This document shows, piece by piece, positions 20,492 through 33,298 of a stretch of DNA of 35,529 nt (position 1 is the stretch's first letter; each line of letters starts with the position of its first letter). A program made the position numbers and the translations under genes. The notes under the pieces are model-generated. The model searched no databases. It was not told the origin of the DNA and worked only from the letters and a program-made list of their open reading frames with translations. The DNA is from Candidatus Aenigmatarchaeota archaeon (GTDB lineage: Archaea > Aenigmatarchaeota > Aenigmatarchaeia > CG10238-14 > SCSR01): contig JACPJT010000002.1 of the NCBI GenBank assembly GCA_016187415.1, forward strand, positions 44,577 through 80,105, in the 5' to 3' direction.

Positions 20492-21059
20492 CTAAGCGTT
20501 TGTTTGATCGTTTGACTGTCTAGACTCATCAAAAATGCCTGATTGATTGAGTGATTGAGCAGGAATTGAATCATTTTGAGCCTTTTTAAGCCTGACCCAT
20601 TTCTTTCTGTTTCCTTCTTTTTCAAATCGCTCTATCATGCCTGTTTTTTGGTCGACTACAGACAGAAATCCTCTTAGACCATCTTCGCTTTCCATGCCCA
20701 TACGCTTATAGAGATCTGAATAACTTATCTCTCCAACTTCCTTTAATATAAACAGAAGTACCTTTGAGATAATTAAGTAAAGACAGTAAAGTTTCGAATC
20801 GCCTTTGTTCATTATCGTCTATTGATTTGAGGAAGGGTAAAAGATAGGCTTCGGCCCATTGTTTGGTAATGACGGATGATTCTAGACGTTCCATTGCGGA
20901 CTCGAGAGATTTGAGTGAGTGGCCTGCATAGCCAGCTGCCATACCAAGTTCAAGAGAATCTTTCTGAAGACGTATATCACTGATTGATTGATTGATTGAT
21001 TCATCTGATTGATTGATTGATTGATTTTGAATCAATCGCTTGAGCCAGTCGAAAACCAT
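20492..21059 (-). pseudogene. Frameshifted gene with tetranucleotide repeats; winged-helix-like C-terminal part
   Basis: Two overlapping frames on this strand look like one broken gene. The upstream part (from the ATG at 21059) contains the N-terminus MVFDWLKRLIQNQ, a Ser/Ile/Asn/Gln repeat made by the microsatellites, and a helical segment ending near QRRFETLLSLL. The downstream part, one base out of phase, continues with KVLLFILKEVGEISYSDLYKRMG, which resembles a winged helix, and ends at 20492. Joining the two at about 20765-20790 gives roughly 190 sensible residues. An alternative is two overlapping genes, the second starting at 20812. The change could be fixed, phase variable or an assembly error. 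Confidence 0.5.
20981..21025. repeat. Two (TGAT)5 microsatellites
   Basis: Five tandem copies of TGAT at 20981-21000 and again at 21006-21025 are separated by TCATC. They lie in the N-terminal part of the broken gene and encode repeated Ile/Asn/Gln/Ser. A degenerate relative (TGAT TGAT TGAG TGAT TGAG) lies at 20540-20559 near the gene's end. A tetranucleotide unit shifts frame when copy number changes, as in bacterial phase-variable loci. Confidence 0.8.
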
Positions 21060-21947: not shown

Positions 21948-22187
21948 ATGGCTTATTGATTAAAAGAATGGTATCCTGTCATTGGTGCGATAATCCCATT
22001 TTTAATAACAGAAGGTTATATTATCTCACGAGGAAGTAAAATCTCAGAAATAGAAGCTTCATTAATTATGTTTGGTGGATCACTTGCTACCATTGGTGGC
22101 GGGTTATTGGGAATGTACTTAGATGCACATACTAGAAACCGAGATAATCACTCAAATATATATTCTCCACCGCAACATTTGAGATAA
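21948..22187 (+). pseudogene. Small membrane protein gene interrupted by an in-frame TGA
   Basis: The reading frame from the ATG at 21948 has a TGA at codon 4 (21957-21959) and is then open to the TAA at 22185, giving 79 codons. The remainder reads as a protein with two hydrophobic segments (WYPVIGAIIPFLI and LIMFGGSLATIGGGLLGMYL) and a polar C-terminus. A TTAAATAT element lies about 25 bases before the ATG, as for a leaderless gene. TGG to TGA is a single-base change. No ATG, GTG or TTG restarts the frame until codon 45. TGA is used as a normal stop by several genes here, so recoding is unlikely. Confidence 0.5.
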
Positions 22188-22200
22188 ACTGTATTATCTC
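22181..22200. repeat. Left dyad: GAGATAA-N6-TTATCTC
   Basis: Seven-base arms GAGATAA and TTATCTC flank the six bases ACTGTA; the left arm includes the stop codon of the preceding frame. The right arm continues as TTATCTCTGAGG (22194-22205), which has an exact inverted copy beyond the large gene. It may be a terminator, an operator or an element end. Confidence 0.55.
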
Positions 22201-22261
22201 TGAGGTTATTTGCGTGACCTAATGAAATTTTATATTAATTTAAAACTTTCATATTCATCTT

Positions 22262-25200
22262 ATGAACAATAAATTGAATGATGTAATAAAATTTATTCAA
22301 AAAACCGTTTCTAAATATAATAAAAATGATCTTCTTTATTGGTTATCAGCCACATCTATTTTACCTGGAAATGAAGTATATCAATCTAGATTCGAATTTC
22401 TAATTCAAACAATTTTGTCTCTAGAAGATACAGAATTCAAAAATAATAAAGTAAGTCAAGATGTAATTCGAGATATATTAACTCAAACTAATTTGCTAGA
22501 TTGGTTTATACGTGAAGATTGGACACCTATACCACTAAAAGACAGAAGAGAGATTTTTCTCTCAGATAAACATCTTAAATATTTCCCATCCGATCTAGAA
22601 TTTCCAGATAATCTTATTAAGAGAATTTTTTCTACATTTTATCTATTAGAAGATAGTTATAAAGCGAGTTTTAAATATTCACCGTTAAATGAAATTGAAA
22701 ATTTGTTACTATATCAAAATGATTTAATTGATTTCATTCTCCAAAGTAATAATTATTCAAAATTCGATAAATTTAACTTACCCAATGAGATTTTTGTTGT
22801 TGATTGGAAAAATATTTTAATAGAAAGTGGCAGTCCATTTTCTAATGTAGTAAATACAGATATATCAGTTTCTGGTACTTTGAATGCACCGGATCAAAAT
22901 TGGTTTAATGGAAATTCCGCTATATCTTACAAACCAATTTATGAGAATAAAATAATTTTACCTAACCTTTTGATTTTCGCTTTTTATTACAAAATAATCA
23001 ATGATTTGAAGAAATTCATAAATGATGACATAAGAAGAGTTCTGCATAATAAACTCTTATACGATACTACATTAAGTATAGTCGAACAAGTGCCTATCCA
23101 AGCAGTTGTCACTGATTTTAAAATAAATAAAATGGATGAGAAATTGGAATTAGGTATAACTTATGATGATAAAATTTTCATAATATCAGTTATAGAAGAT
23201 AAATTTGACCAGAACTTATTTGAAAAATCGCTCTCCGATATTCAAAATACCTTCGAAAAAGTCAATTTGGAACTCCAAAAGTCTAATATATCATTAGATG
23301 TTAATGGTGAAATAACATGTTTTGAAGGTAATTTAGAACCCATTTTTTTAATTATATTCGGTGAATTGGATGCACTATCTACTAATTTTATTATAACTGA
23401 AAATAAAACAAGTTCTAAAAATCTTTTCATAATTCCTCAATCTTGTTTAAACTATATATTTGAAGATTTGAATGACAAAAAAAGTGATTTAATATTTTTT
23501 ACTAAAATATTACGAAAAAACATTTCAATGGAAAAACACATATTTAGTTTCACATTTTGTGATTTTTATCAAATTTTCTCAAATGGTTTTAAAAGTTTCC
23601 ATGAAAATAACCAAATGATATTTTTATATCCACATTCATGGTCAGATGCGGAGAATCAAAAAATAAAAATTAGACCATGTATGGATTTAAGACCTTATGT
23701 AGTTTTCCCACCTTTTAGTTTTAAAATTGAAAAACTAGACGAAAGTACATTTTATGGATACAATAAATTATTCCAAAAAAGTTTTTGGTGCTTCAAAAAT
23801 AGTTCCAAAATCTATTTTTTAATAGATCATGAAACTCTATCAGAAGAAAAGGAATATAAAATTATAGAACTTTATACCGCAAGTTTTTTGTCAGAGTTAT
23901 ATTCTCATATATTAGAAAAAACAAGTAAACTAAAATTATTCTTATCGAATAAAGATAAGATAATTAATTTGATGCCTTCGAGTTGGGCTATGAAAAATAA
24001 ATTAATAGACAATGATAATTTCGATTTTAAGGTTGGTATAAATCCACAAAACAAAAGTGAATTTCTTTTAATATTTAATCCAAATAAAATAAATGAAAAC
24101 CCTGATGAACAAATAGACCAAGCTATCAAACCATTATTTTCAATAATGGATGATTTAGTTAAAAAAGAAGATATCTCAAAATTTGTCGAAAATGTAATAA
24201 ATCTTGATCTTAAATCTAAATTCAATGTATCTAAAGTACCTCATTTTCTTAATATGCAATATGAGTATACCCCTTATTTCCCAACAATTATTGACGAATC
24301 TGATATAGAATTATTTATTTTAAATTTTGCTAAAGAAAATAATATTAAAGATGGTATCTACAATAAAACAGATGCTCATAATATAATAAATAATGTTGTA
24401 TCAAAACTTGAGTCCGAATTAAAAGAAAAACTTTCTAAATATAATCTGAAATCTATTGTAAAGCTAGCATATTCAGAATATGAAAAATCACTAATATCAA
24501 GAGAATATGCTAGAATAAAATTTCTATTAAACCGTAAAATGAAATTATATAAAAATCCTTTGGATATTATAGAGGATGCTGAAAGTAAGTTGAGCATTTA
24601 TTCGCCTAGTTGCAGATTTTTAATAGAAAAGGCTTTAGAATGGAATGTAAATGGGAATAAGAAAATAAATGTTGAAGAATGGGAAACTCTAATACCGGTG
24701 GCTTCGAAAATTCTAGAATTTTCTCAGATTAGTGATTATTTATATTATATATCAGAACTTGGTATACTCAATATAAACTTAAACATAGACACTAAAAACC
24801 GTTTAGAATTTAGACTTATTATAGAAAATAGCCCGTTTAATAAATTCTTCGAAAATTCGTTACAAAATGTAAATGAACAAGATTTGAATAATCATAAAAT
24901 AATGAATAAAACTGAAGAATCGGTAGTTGAAGAGACAAGTGGAATAATAACAAAACAAAAGGAATTAAATCAAATTAATATAAACATCAAAAAATATTTT
25001 GGTTTTAATTTAATAGAATATGGTATTATCTTAAATAAAATAACATTTCTAAACGACAGGCTTAAAAATCATATTATAGAGATGGATCAAGATAGTCTAG
25101 TTGATTTCCTAAATAAAGAAACAAATATAGAAAAAAGTATAATCCGTGATATTTTAAATTTTTCTACCGTCTCAAAAGAGAACTTTGCACAACCGTATAG

Positions 25201-25870
25201 ATATGGTAAGATATCTACTCGTGATAACAGGCTTACAATTAAACCTTTCATAAAAATTGATAATGATATTATATTTGGCATTGCTAGTGTTATTAAATGT
25301 TCTGAAATGGTCCTCAATTTATTAATTGATGGTAATTGGCCATATGCGGTTAATACTGATTTTCCAAAGGAATTACAAGAAAGTCTGGAATGGAGAAAGC
25401 AAAAGCTGTCTTCAGACTTTGAAAATCTTGTATACGAAAGAATTAAAAAAAATACTGATAAAATCGATAAGAATGTATGTCAAAATATAGGTCAAAACGA
25501 CAAGTGTTTATCAAAAGTAAAGGAATATTGCCCTGGTCAAATAGATGTAATATCGTATCACCCTAAATCTAAAACCATTATTTTATGGGAAGCTAAAAAC
25601 ATCAATATTAGATTTGGTTCAATGGAAATAATATCGGATATAAAAAATTTCACTAAAGAAGAAGGTGAAATATCAAAATTGAAAACTAAGGAGGATTATA
25701 TTAGAAGAAATTTAGAATCTGTACTCGATTATTATGATCTAAGTAACAAAAATGAATGGGATGTAAAATCAGTTTTTGTCTTTTCTGACCTATACATATT
25801 AAAATTCCTTTTAGAAAATAAAGCTAATACAATATTTTTTAATGAAATAGAAAAATTCCTAAGTTTATAA
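22262..25870 (+). CDS. Very large unknown protein with a C-terminal PD-(D/E)xK-like nuclease signature
   Basis: A 1202-residue protein that I do not recognise as a whole. The first 1000 residues are rich in Lys, Asn, Ile and Glu with no P-loop, repeat or membrane segment that I can see. The last 150 residues look like a restriction-type nuclease: a helix with E1054 (SDFENLVYERIKK), then D1095 in GQIDVISY, and E1110-x-K1112 in IILWEAKN, the classic spacing of PD-(D/E)xK enzymes. Three Cys lie just before this core (CQNIGQNDKCLSKVKEYC), a possible metal site. The gene is much more AT-rich than the neighbours. It stands alone between two dyads with a shared 12-bp inverted repeat. A TATA-like AATTTAAA lies about 21 bases before the ATG. 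Defence function is an inference from domain and context. Confidence 0.6.
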   Translation: MNNKLNDVIKFIQKTVSKYNKNDLLYWLSATSILPGNEVYQSRFEFLIQTILSLEDTEFKNNKVSQDVIRDILTQTNLLDWFIREDWTPIPLKDRREIFLSDKHLKYFPSDLEFPDNLIKRIFSTFYLLEDSYKASFKYSPLNEIENLLLYQNDLIDFILQSNNYSKFDKFNLPNEIFVVDWKNILIESGSPFSNVVNTDISVSGTLNAPDQNWFNGNSAISYKPIYENKIILPNLLIFAFYYKIINDLKKFINDDIRRVLHNKLLYDTTLSIVEQVPIQAVVTDFKINKMDEKLELGITYDDKIFIISVIEDKFDQNLFEKSLSDIQNTFEKVNLELQKSNISLDVNGEITCFEGNLEPIFLIIFGELDALSTNFIITENKTSSKNLFIIPQSCLNYIFEDLNDKKSDLIFFTKILRKNISMEKHIFSFTFCDFYQIFSNGFKSFHENNQMIFLYPHSWSDAENQKIKIRPCMDLRPYVVFPPFSFKIEKLDESTFYGYNKLFQKSFWCFKNSSKIYFLIDHETLSEEKEYKIIELYTASFLSELYSHILEKTSKLKLFLSNKDKIINLMPSSWAMKNKLIDNDNFDFKVGINPQNKSEFLLIFNPNKINENPDEQIDQAIKPLFSIMDDLVKKEDISKFVENVINLDLKSKFNVSKVPHFLNMQYEYTPYFPTIIDESDIELFILNFAKENNIKDGIYNKTDAHNIINNVVSKLESELKEKLSKYNLKSIVKLAYSEYEKSLISREYARIKFLLNRKMKLYKNPLDIIEDAESKLSIYSPSCRFLIEKALEWNVNGNKKINVEEWETLIPVASKILEFSQISDYLYYISELGILNINLNIDTKNRLEFRLIIENSPFNKFFENSLQNVNEQDLNNHKIMNKTEESVVEETSGIITKQKELNQININIKKYFGFNLIEYGIILNKITFLNDRLKNHIIEMDQDSLVDFLNKETNIEKSIIRDILNFSTVSKENFAQPYRYGKISTRDNRLTIKPFIKIDNDIIFGIASVIKCSEMVLNLLIDGNWPYAVNTDFPKELQESLEWRKQKLSSDFENLVYERIKKNTDKIDKNVCQNIGQNDKCLSKVKEYCPGQIDVISYHPKSKTIILWEAKNINIRFGSMEIISDIKNFTKEEGEISKLKTKEDYIRRNLESVLDYYDLSNKNEWDVKSVFVFSDLYILKFLLENKANTIFFNEIEKFLSL

Positions 25871-25930: not shown

Positions 25931-25953
25931 CCTCAGAGATAACATACATTATC
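25931..25953. repeat. Right dyad: CCTCAGAGATAA-N6-TTATC
   Basis: CCTCAGAGATAA (25931-25942) is the exact reverse complement of TTATCTCTGAGG at 22194-22205. With the following bases it forms GATAA-N6-TTATC, the same dyad as on the left. The pair points CCTCA inward on both sides of the large gene. Confidence 0.6.
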
Positions 25954-25979: not shown

Positions 25980-26399
25980 TCACCCGCTCACCTTGAACAA
26001 TCTTACCTTGCCTTTTATTTTTTTCTTTAATTCATCGTCAAAAGTCAGCAATTCCGAATCAGTTTCCTCGTTCAAAGATACAAAAATGGCATCCGCTCCC
26101 CTTATTTCAAATTTGACAGTCGCTTCAACCGCCGAAAATATGCGATCGCTTGTAAGCTCTTTGAAGCTTATCATATTTCCTATCCATGATTTCAGGGTCT
26201 CTTCAGCCATGTAAGCCAGATTTGCGCTGTTTGTCCGTCGCCTTATCGCCCCCACCACTTCCGGCAATGCCAGATAAGACGTGAATTTCTCGCAATCTTT
26301 CATGATAAGCTCTCTGAAAATTTCCGCGGCTTTCTTATGGTTCTTTTCTCCATTCAGGAGCAAACTTACAAAAAATGAAGAGTCTATTGTAACTCTCAT
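25980..26399 (-). CDS. vapC: PIN-domain ribonuclease toxin (VapC type)
   Basis: Toxin of a VapBC-type pair, 139 aa, expected to cut RNA. The acidic residues of a PIN active site are in place: D6 (VTIDSSFF), E47 (LPEVVGAI), D103 (RGADAIFVSL) and D121/D122 (LLTFDDEL). The start ATG at 26399 follows the antitoxin stop by two bases, so the two are coupled. Typical targets are tRNA or rRNA, which cannot be told from sequence. It lies just beyond the right dyad, on the opposite strand to the large gene. Confidence 0.85.
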   Translation of the reverse strand: MRVTIDSSFFVSLLLNGEKNHKKAAEIFRELIMKDCEKFTSYLALPEVVGAIRRRTNSANLAYMAEETLKSWIGNMISFKELTSDRIFSAVEATVKFEIRGADAIFVSLNEETDSELLTFDDELKKKIKGKVRLFKVSG

Positions 26400-26401
26400 G
26401 C

Positions 26402-26656
26402 CTATCTGCGCTCTTCTCTAATCGCCTGTACTGCGGACAATCCTTTGGGCCACTTCTTGCCTATCATACCGGCTATCTTCTCTACTTTCTCCATTTCCTT
26501 TTCTACATCCAATTTTTCTATGATTATCTTGTTCCCTTCTAGACGTTCCCTGATAACAGTCCCGGGCTGTATTCCCGTAGCTTTTCTAAATTCCTTTCTC
26601 AACACTATTTGGCTCTTAGGACTTACCCTAAGCACCTTTTCCATATGTATTTTCAT
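26402..26656 (-). CDS. vapB: AbrB-type antitoxin (VapB)
   Basis: Antitoxin partner of the PIN gene, 84 aa. Residues 6-48 (RVSPKSQIVLRKEFRKATGI and the following PGTVIRERLEGNKIIIEKL) form an AbrB/SpoVT swapped-hairpin DNA-binding domain. The remaining C-terminus (EKEMEKVEKIAGMIG...AIREERR) should bind and block the toxin. A TATA-like element read leftwards lies near 26679-26686, about 26 bases before the ATG, so the message is probably leaderless. Such antitoxins usually repress their own operon. Confidence 0.82.
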   Translation of the reverse strand: MKIHMEKVLRVSPKSQIVLRKEFRKATGIQPGTVIRERLEGNKIIIEKLDVEKEMEKVEKIAGMIGKKWPKGLSAVQAIREERR

Positions 26657-31655: not shown

Positions 31656-32327
31656 GTGATTTCTATCATAGATTTCGACAAATTAATCGAGACCCACCTG
31701 AAAAGGGAAAGGAAACAAAAACAAATCGGGAGGTATTATCCGTCGGAGATAGGAGGTTGCATCAGGAAGGTGTGGTATTCATACAAATATCCGCTGGAGA
31801 TTGAGCCTGACAAATTAAAGATATTCGAAATAGGAAACATACTTCACGAGTTCATTATGCAGGTTTTCAAAAACGAGAAGAACGCCGATTCCATATCGTT
31901 CCTTGAATCCGAGTTGCCGTTTAAGATGGAGAAGAAGGACTTTGTGATTTCCGGGAGATTGGATGACATCATTGTTCTGAAAGAAGACGGGAGAAAAATT
32001 ATTATAGAAGTCAAATCAATCAGGGATGTAAATTCCGCTTCAAAGCCCAACAAGAACCATGTCATGCAGCTGCAATTCTACATGCATGCCACAGGAATAA
32101 AGGACGGGGTGATTTTGTATGTCGATAAGAATAATCTTAAGACAAGGGCGTTTGAAATCAGTTACGATGAAAGGCACAGCTTGGATATCCTGAACAGGTT
32201 CAAGGCGTTGCACGAGCTCCTCACAAAGGACGTGCTTCCAATAGATGAAGCAAAACGATCAAAGGACACCTTATGGATGTGCAACATGTGCGAATATAGG
32301 GCAAAATGCGACAGGAATGAGGGATAA
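31656..32327 (+). CDS. Cas4/Dna2-like Fe-S PD-(D/E)xK exonuclease
   Basis: RecB-family nuclease of 223 aa. Four Cys for a 4Fe-4S cluster are C35 (GGCIRK) and C209, C212 and C218 (MCNMCEYRAKC). The nuclease core has H64 (ILHEF), D103/D104 (SGRLDDII), E118 and K120 (IIIEVKS), and the Q138...Y142 motif (QLQFY). This is the Cas4 pattern, but no CRISPR array or other cas gene is in the window, so I call it a general Cas4/Dna2-like repair enzyme. A TAA precedes the GTG start at 31656, which fixes the start. Its neighbour is a XerA-like recombinase. Confidence 0.88.
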   Translation: MISIIDFDKLIETHLKRERKQKQIGRYYPSEIGGCIRKVWYSYKYPLEIEPDKLKIFEIGNILHEFIMQVFKNEKNADSISFLESELPFKMEKKDFVISGRLDDIIVLKEDGRKIIIEVKSIRDVNSASKPNKNHVMQLQFYMHATGIKDGVILYVDKNNLKTRAFEISYDERHSLDILNRFKALHELLTKDVLPIDEAKRSKDTLWMCNMCEYRAKCDRNEG

Positions 32328-32362
32328 GAGTTTGAAAGTCGAATTAATTTCTAATTGACCAT

Positions 32363-33298
32363 ATGATTACCATGGAAATCCAAGAGATAACGCAGTTCAA
32401 ATCGGTCCAAAAGATGCTGGGGGAATTGAAACTCCTGACACGAAGCGAAAATACGGAAAAAACTTACCTGAAAGGTCTTGTCTCATTCACAAAGGCCATG
32501 AGCATCGAGAACTTGGACGAGTTTGTGGAAAAAATAAAAAGCCAGACCATAGATGCGAATGAAATCCACAAAGATTTTGTAGTCAACCTTGCCAACAAGA
32601 ATATGGCACCGAAGACTGTGGGCGCATGGGCGGCATCAATAAAAAAATTCCTTTCATCAAATGGCATAGACCTTACAAGGACTGTCCCGATTAAAGTTTA
32701 CAATATACACGAGGACACCTTGCCGTCAACAGAAGACCTGAAAAAAATACTGGCCAGCTGCAGCCTGAGAACAAAGACCATAATACTTTTGCTCACATCA
32801 TCGGGTCTAAGGATAGGCGAACTGAGAAATCTGAAAATCTCCGACGTTAATCTCAATTCCGAACCTTCGGTAATCAGAATAAAAGGCCTTACGGCAAAGG
32901 AGAGAAAATCTAGAACGACCTTCATATCAAACGAGGCCAAACAGGTTCTTCAGTCTTATCTGGAAGCTAGAAAGAATAACGGCCACCAGATAACGGATGA
33001 TTCGCATGTGTTTGCAACAAACGAAGGAACGCAGATGAGTTACCAGAACCTGCAGTTTATCTTGAACAATGTATTCAAGAAGGTTAGCAAGAAGGAAGGG
33101 AAGAGATACGGCCTGCACCCGCATTCACTTAGAAAATTCTTCAAAACACAGTTGATATCGGCCGGCGTGCCAGCACCTATAGTCGACAGACTGTCCGGTC
33201 ATGCAAGATATCTTGCCAGGGAATATGAACTTTATACAGAAGAGCAACTAAAAGAATGGTTTGTTAAAGGCATGAAAAATCTGGAACTGTTGAGCTGA
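32363..33298 (+). CDS. xerA: Tyrosine recombinase, XerA-like
   Basis: Site-specific DNA recombinase of 311 aa, a size typical of archaeal XerA. The active-site residues are R150 (SGLRIGEL), K178 or nearby, H254 and R257 (HPHSLRKF), H280 (LSGHARYL) and the nucleophile, probably Y288 in REYELYTEE. The N-terminal 110 residues are a SAM-like core-binding domain. XerA resolves chromosome dimers at dif; phage-type integration is the alternative. A TATA-like GAATTAATTT lies 26 bases before the internal ATG at 32372, which may be the real start. It follows the Cas4-like gene by 35 bases. Confidence 0.9.
   Translation: MITMEIQEITQFKSVQKMLGELKLLTRSENTEKTYLKGLVSFTKAMSIENLDEFVEKIKSQTIDANEIHKDFVVNLANKNMAPKTVGAWAASIKKFLSSNGIDLTRTVPIKVYNIHEDTLPSTEDLKKILASCSLRTKTIILLLTSSGLRIGELRNLKISDVNLNSEPSVIRIKGLTAKERKSRTTFISNEAKQVLQSYLEARKNNGHQITDDSHVFATNEGTQMSYQNLQFILNNVFKKVSKKEGKRYGLHPHSLRKFFKTQLISAGVPAPIVDRLSGHARYLAREYELYTEEQLKEWFVKGMKNLELLS

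Follow-up and report, generated by a model that had tools for sequence, protein, structure and literature searches.

The window analysed here is a stretch of 35,529 nt from Candidatus Aenigmatarchaeota archaeon (GenBank assembly GCA_016187415.1, contig JACPJT010000002.1, positions 44,577 to 80,105), whose genome measures 735 kb, a size suggestive of a DPANN-type lineage. Genes for a split RNA polymerase, aEF-2 and aEF-1A lie upstream on the same contig and mark the window as archaeal. On the forward strand, positions 22262..25870 hold an intact open reading frame of 1202 codons with no internal stop, exactly as an earlier sequence-only reading had described it. The encoded protein of 1202 aa, hereafter P0001, is Upx-like, as judged from a family profile match and a full-length profile-profile match detailed below. 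Its gene has 25.2% GC and a GC3 of 18.5%, whereas the remainder of the window, with 20.4–28.2 kb set aside, has 41.5% GC. This composition is foreign and bears out the earlier description of an AT-rich island; the best reading is that the gene was gained horizontally as a one-gene cargo.

A TATA-like element (TATATTAA), read from the sequence at 22231..22238 on the same strand, is located about 30 bp 5' of the ATG and, with the usual spacing of archaeal promoters, would yield a nearly leaderless mRNA. The gene is also flanked, about 60–80 bp off either end, by the two copies of a 23-bp imperfect inverted repeat, the left at 22183..22205 and the right at 25931..25953. Each copy is nearly palindromic, and no others are present in the whole 735-kb genome. 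They match each other at 19 of 23 positions, a level that was reached twice when the flanking sequence was shuffled 1000 times, and could be either operators or the remnants of recombination sites. Directly upstream lies a small, membrane-protein-like ORF (21948–22187) whose codon 4 is an in-frame TGA; the description of the neighbours as broken genes is correct in part. The toxin–antitoxin pair also reported there was recovered downstream, with a PIN toxin at 25980–26399 (Pfam E 9e-9) and a MazE/AbrB-type antitoxin at 26402–26656, the latter under the Pfam cut-off. Further neighbours are small AT-rich ORFs, and the genes flanking P0001 are merely about 29–42% identical to those of genomes from the same genus. 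Runs of a TGATTGATTGATT repeat occur at 20539–21026, within the small ORF 20706–21059 and immediately outside it. At 31656–33298, about 6 kb from the P0001 gene, a Cas4-like exonuclease gene is followed by a tyrosine integrase gene, both at 41–42% GC; this pair is possibly what is left of an integrated element of normal GC.

Searches started from P0001 alone gave little. No Pfam domain scored above its cut-off anywhere along the protein, ATPase, Toprim and STAND domains included, and the sub-threshold Pfam matches to DUF2023 and RGM_N were taken as chance. The absence of a recognised domain from the first 1000 residues, noted earlier, is thus confirmed for Pfam, but the region turns out to be the body of an Upx protein. 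PADLOC models, among them that of Upx (PDLC02221), returned nothing at E <= 1, and neither PHROGs profiles nor a phmmer search of PDB sequences produced a match. BLAST found no relative in 96 related genomes, four of the same genus among them, tblastn found none in plasmids and phages, and pattern scans built on P0001 were unsuccessful. The first hint of a family, and the sole clue at that stage, was a weak match over residues 696–1154 to the NCBIfam Upx model NF042954 (23.6 bits, E 6.4e-6), an equivalog model with a curated cut-off of 1900 bits. The bacterial protein Upx, which we take from its NCBIfam name to act against phages, reportedly came out of a defence-gene screen of 2020.

Searches for the Upx family in 156 relatives, 392 archaea and 369 Gammaproteobacteria returned almost nothing. 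It was a sample of Enterobacteriaceae, searched with the Upx model, that opened the family and gave true Upx, with L010 and L011 above the Upx cut-off and L013 more distant. An earlier sample had given another distant relative, L008, and tblastn from L008 and L010 in plasmids led to copies in Lactococcus, Bosea, Sinorhizobium and Deinococcus. An alignment of five such proteins yielded 30 loci from many bacterial phyla, Methanosarcina, a Helarchaeota metagenome-assembled genome (MAG) and two viral contigs. Weak candidates in genomes G016, G084, G123 and G389, matched in the nuclease core only (E about 1e-4), were left out, as were L003 and L006; all are probably other PD-(D/E)xK proteins. When 392 archaeal genomes were searched with a profile, one further convincing homologue emerged, an intact ORF of 1199 aa (L074:7027-10623) in genome G338, which belongs to another archaeal phylum. 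A scan of viral contigs with P0001 and L074 found nothing.

By BLASTP, P0001 matches several of the Upx-like proteins without any intermediate, the best being an actinobacterial protein (E 3e-15) over residues 633–1196. A family profile built from 32 full-length members, with P0001 left out, matches it at 156 bits (E 1e-48), whereas none of 20 shuffled copies scores above 0.4 bits. The match is co-linear in two segments, residues 3–77 (domain i-E 8e-7) and 633–1199 (135 bits), while the middle region of P0001 is too diverged to align by itself. This diverged part is bridged by L074, which matches the family profile over its residues 6–450 (50 bits) and is the best full-length partner of P0001; BLASTP aligns the two at residues 16–113 (32% identity, E 1e-13), and their overall identity is about 25%. 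Aligned as a pair against the family, P0001 and L074 gave an hhalign probability of 99.93% over 1122 columns, covering residues 14–1200. By these computations P0001 and Upx share common descent over their full length, the extent of homology that membership of a wider Upx-like family requires. In the tree, P0001 sits on a very long branch next to another long branch, and this join may be false.

Three parts of the protein can be distinguished. The first is a conserved N-terminal Upx segment (residues 3–113, 22268..22600, + strand), delimited by the profile domain at 3–77 and the BLASTP match to L074; it carries the 'ED' pair of the family, E85-D86, of which E85 is invariant in the family N-terminal alignment. 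The second, a helical Upx middle or scaffold (residues 633–1000, 24158..25261, + strand), falls within the profile domain 633–1199 and consists mainly of long helices in the structure model. The third is the C-terminal PD-(D/E)xK nuclease domain (residues 1036–1202, 25367..25867, + strand), whose signature the sequence-only reading had picked out, with E1054, D1095, E1110 and K1112 at exactly these positions. D1095 (25544..25546, + strand), the putative metal-binding Asp of a PD motif G1092-x-x-D1095, and the Glu and Lys of the (D/E)xK motif E1110-A-K1112 (25589..25597, + strand) are, like G1092, invariant in all 38 aligned proteins, P0001 included. Because of this invariance the nuclease motif goes beyond chance. 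The residues also constitute the catalytic G-x-x-D ... E-x-K signature expected of the wider Upx-like family, and the computation shows an intact active site. E1054 (25421..25423, + strand) is the acidic residue expected in helix 1, but its conservation is partial, with Glu in 20 of 38 homologues and mostly Asn or Ala in the others. The cysteines that had been remarked on just before the motif (1073, 1082 and 1090) do exist, but they are incidental: their columns are gapped or hold other residues in the homologues, L074 has none of them, and a zinc site was rejected.

An AlphaFold2 model of residues 620–1202, built from 30 sequences (pLDDT 75, pTM 0.75), predicts for this C-terminal domain the alpha-beta-beta-beta-alpha-beta order of the PD-(D/E)xK superfamily, with the acidic helix residue, the Asp and the ExK motif in the expected places. 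Helix 1036–1062 carries E1054; it is followed by strand 1067–1072, strand 1094–1100 with D1095, strand 1105–1112 with E1110 and K1112, helix 1120–1131, more helices and strand 1167–1174. The alpha-beta-beta-beta core proposed earlier is accordingly found in the model, and the computation supports a nuclease fold for the C terminus. When this model was compared with all PDB chains by Foldseek, the single significant match (E 8.3e-16, TM 0.58, 595 columns) was to 9wuf, entitled 'Cryo-EM structure of Upx', the next having an E of 0.13; the protein in 9wuf is essentially that of L010. Since the AlphaFold alignment held Upx relatives, the predicted fold is not fully independent of the sequence argument. 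The N-terminal 691 residues were modelled on the Helarchaeota homologue instead of P0001 (pLDDT 88), and 9wuf was again the sole significant PDB match (E 1.5e-30, TM 0.77). The resemblance to the solved Upx fold is therefore observed on P0001 itself for residues 620–1202 and judged on the Helarchaeota homologue for the N-terminal part. Comparison with viral structures gave partial matches, several PD-(D/E)xK nucleases among them. We do not propose a degenerate nuclease fold for the N-terminal region, since the Foldseek matches to BspD6I proteins that hinted at one are weak (probabilities <= 0.33). No confident whole-protein match to a non-nuclease family was obtained, and the whole of P0001 matches Upx, a defence nuclease family.

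P0001 and Upx (NF042954, PDLC02221, 9wuf) have in common their full-length profile homology, the C-terminal nuclease fold, the invariant G-x-x-D ... E-x-K signature, the single-gene organization and a similar size (1202 aa for P0001, about 1240–1272 aa for Upx). They differ by their identity of only about 20%, by the score of 23.6 bits, far under the curated cut-off of 1900, by the failure of PADLOC to detect P0001 and by its archaeal host. Several family motifs are also missing from P0001. The K-H-x-x-R motif that follows ExK, which is frequent in the Upx-like family yet no published defining feature, is altered at two positions, with L1140 in place of His (conserved in 35/38) and K1143 in place of Arg (37/38); the near-universal acid (D/E) after the Gly is replaced by Q1093, and the near-universal PW[R]F..RRLS stretch is absent. 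Because it falls short of the NCBIfam and PADLOC thresholds and lacks these motifs, P0001 was classed not as Upx proper but as a divergent form of it within a wider Upx-like family. The Upx-like proteins of Methanosarcina and of the Helarchaeota MAG are also archaeal, but they are caught by the PADLOC Upx model (E 1e-62 and 2e-72, respectively), group with proteins from Chloroflexota and Bacteroidota and, unlike P0001, retain the family motifs. A nuclease at the terminus is likewise found in Shedu, Gabija, Avs and other PD-(D/E)xK or terminal-nuclease defence proteins; P0001 shares this arrangement with them but matches no PADLOC model in sequence.

The surroundings of the relatives are rich in defence genes. 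Among 103 genes flanking family members (a raw tally, without a background rate), PADLOC matches include type I and IIG restriction-modification (R-M), CBASS cyclase and phospholipase, Dsr2, PLD helicase, MADS and more Upx copies. At individual loci, Avs2 adjoins the Deinococcus copy, Avs1b the Helarchaeota copy, Dsr2 the Hymenobacter copy and a type IIG R-M system the Neorhizobium copy, and a defence reverse transcriptase (DRT) and PD-Lambda-4 are found near Upx in Photorhabdus. L074 is adjoined by a divergent operon that encodes a DpnII restriction enzyme together with two DNA methyltransferases. The suggestion that P0001 belongs to anti-phage defence gains weight from its kinship with Upx and from these neighbourhoods, by analogy with which P0001 itself probably has an antiviral role.

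We hold, with a probability of roughly 0.82, that P0001 belongs to the wider Upx family as a divergent archaeal representative and acts as a single-polypeptide antiviral nuclease. The N-terminal and middle part of about 1000 residues, corresponding to the Upx body, would most likely sense either the invader or products of its replication, and most likely keep the nuclease inactive in the uninfected cell by a presumed autoinhibition. D1095, E1110, K1112 and probably E1054 would bind a divalent metal, and the C-terminal PD-(D/E)xK domain may then cleave nucleic acid, most likely invading DNA; we propose that such cleavage would be aimed at the invader rather than suicidal. Weighing against this interpretation are the scores under the NCBIfam and PADLOC Upx cut-offs, the missing His of K-H-x-x-R, acid after G1092 and PW[R]F..RRLS stretch, and the fact that no known defence gene adjoins P0001, just the PIN/AbrB pair of uncertain role.

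Within the same family, the infection-triggered nuclease might instead degrade host and viral nucleic acid alike, so that the cell dies, as in abortive infection. A one-gene system without a modification partner must be restrained before infection, and relatives adjoin the abortive systems Dsr2, CBASS and Avs; L074, however, sits with a direct restriction system, the DpnII R-M, and the sequence does not tell direct restriction from suicide. We consider suicide a substantial possibility that falls short of being probable. Another proposal, that P0001 is the nuclease of a mobile element, serving its mobility or competition between elements rather than cellular defence, draws on the inverted repeat that brackets the gene, the integrase and Cas4-like exonuclease genes at 31.7–33.3 kb, and the relatives that occur on plasmids or within viral contigs. 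Both the integrase gene and the exonuclease gene, however, are host-like in composition and not adjacent, and P0001 has no transposase or replication gene beside it; this origin of its activity seems unlikely, although defence genes ride such elements too and the two readings overlap. A decaying copy of Upx that no longer works might be suspected from the lost KHxxR His and RRLS, the very long branch and the small broken gene next door, but 1202 codons have stayed open at 25% GC, where chance stop codons are frequent, every catalytic residue is retained, and a second archaeal lineage has a similarly diverged intact ORF; decay is improbable. That P0001 is a housekeeping or DNA-repair nuclease of its archaeal lineage, an idea favoured by how common PD-(D/E)xK folds are among repair and recombination enzymes, is very improbable given its 25% GC island, the defence-rich neighbours of its relatives, the lack of any copy in the 96 relatives searched by BLAST and the presence, by profile, of a copy in just one distant genome among 391 other archaeal genomes.

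P0001 shows that Upx reaches small-genome archaea in a form that current libraries miss. Upx is already known and its structure solved; of this form in small-genome archaea the literature searched makes no mention. P0001 also offers a distant comparison for the essentials of Upx, as it keeps the catalytic D, the E-x-K and the N-terminal 'ED' pair but not KHxxR and RRLS. With 23.5% GC, compared with 35% on either side of it, the L074 gene is AT-rich too; its product also lacks KHxxR, and the active site reads D-A-K where P0001 has E-A-K. Since KHxxR is jointly absent, the D/E-A-K varies and defence detectors are blind to them, P0001 and L074 might, as a tentative idea, form a separate archaeal system on the Upx body, with an altered trigger or substrate. 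Were this so, some of the scarcity of defence systems that has been reported for small-genome archaea would come from a failure to detect them.

Some relatives depart from the common architecture. Four of them (L023 from Methanosarcina, L024, L030 and L045) carry an extra N-terminal SEC-C zinc motif, GRNDPCPCGSGKKYKKCC, that P0001 and canonical Upx do not have. A Pyrinomonadaceae MAG harbours two tandem Upx-like genes (L021:9082-16460). Finally, the Upx-like gene of the Lactococcus plasmid pFI430 (L009:6573-9251) is found immediately 3' of an IS981 transposase; its N-terminal third is missing, a truncation that the insertion probably caused.
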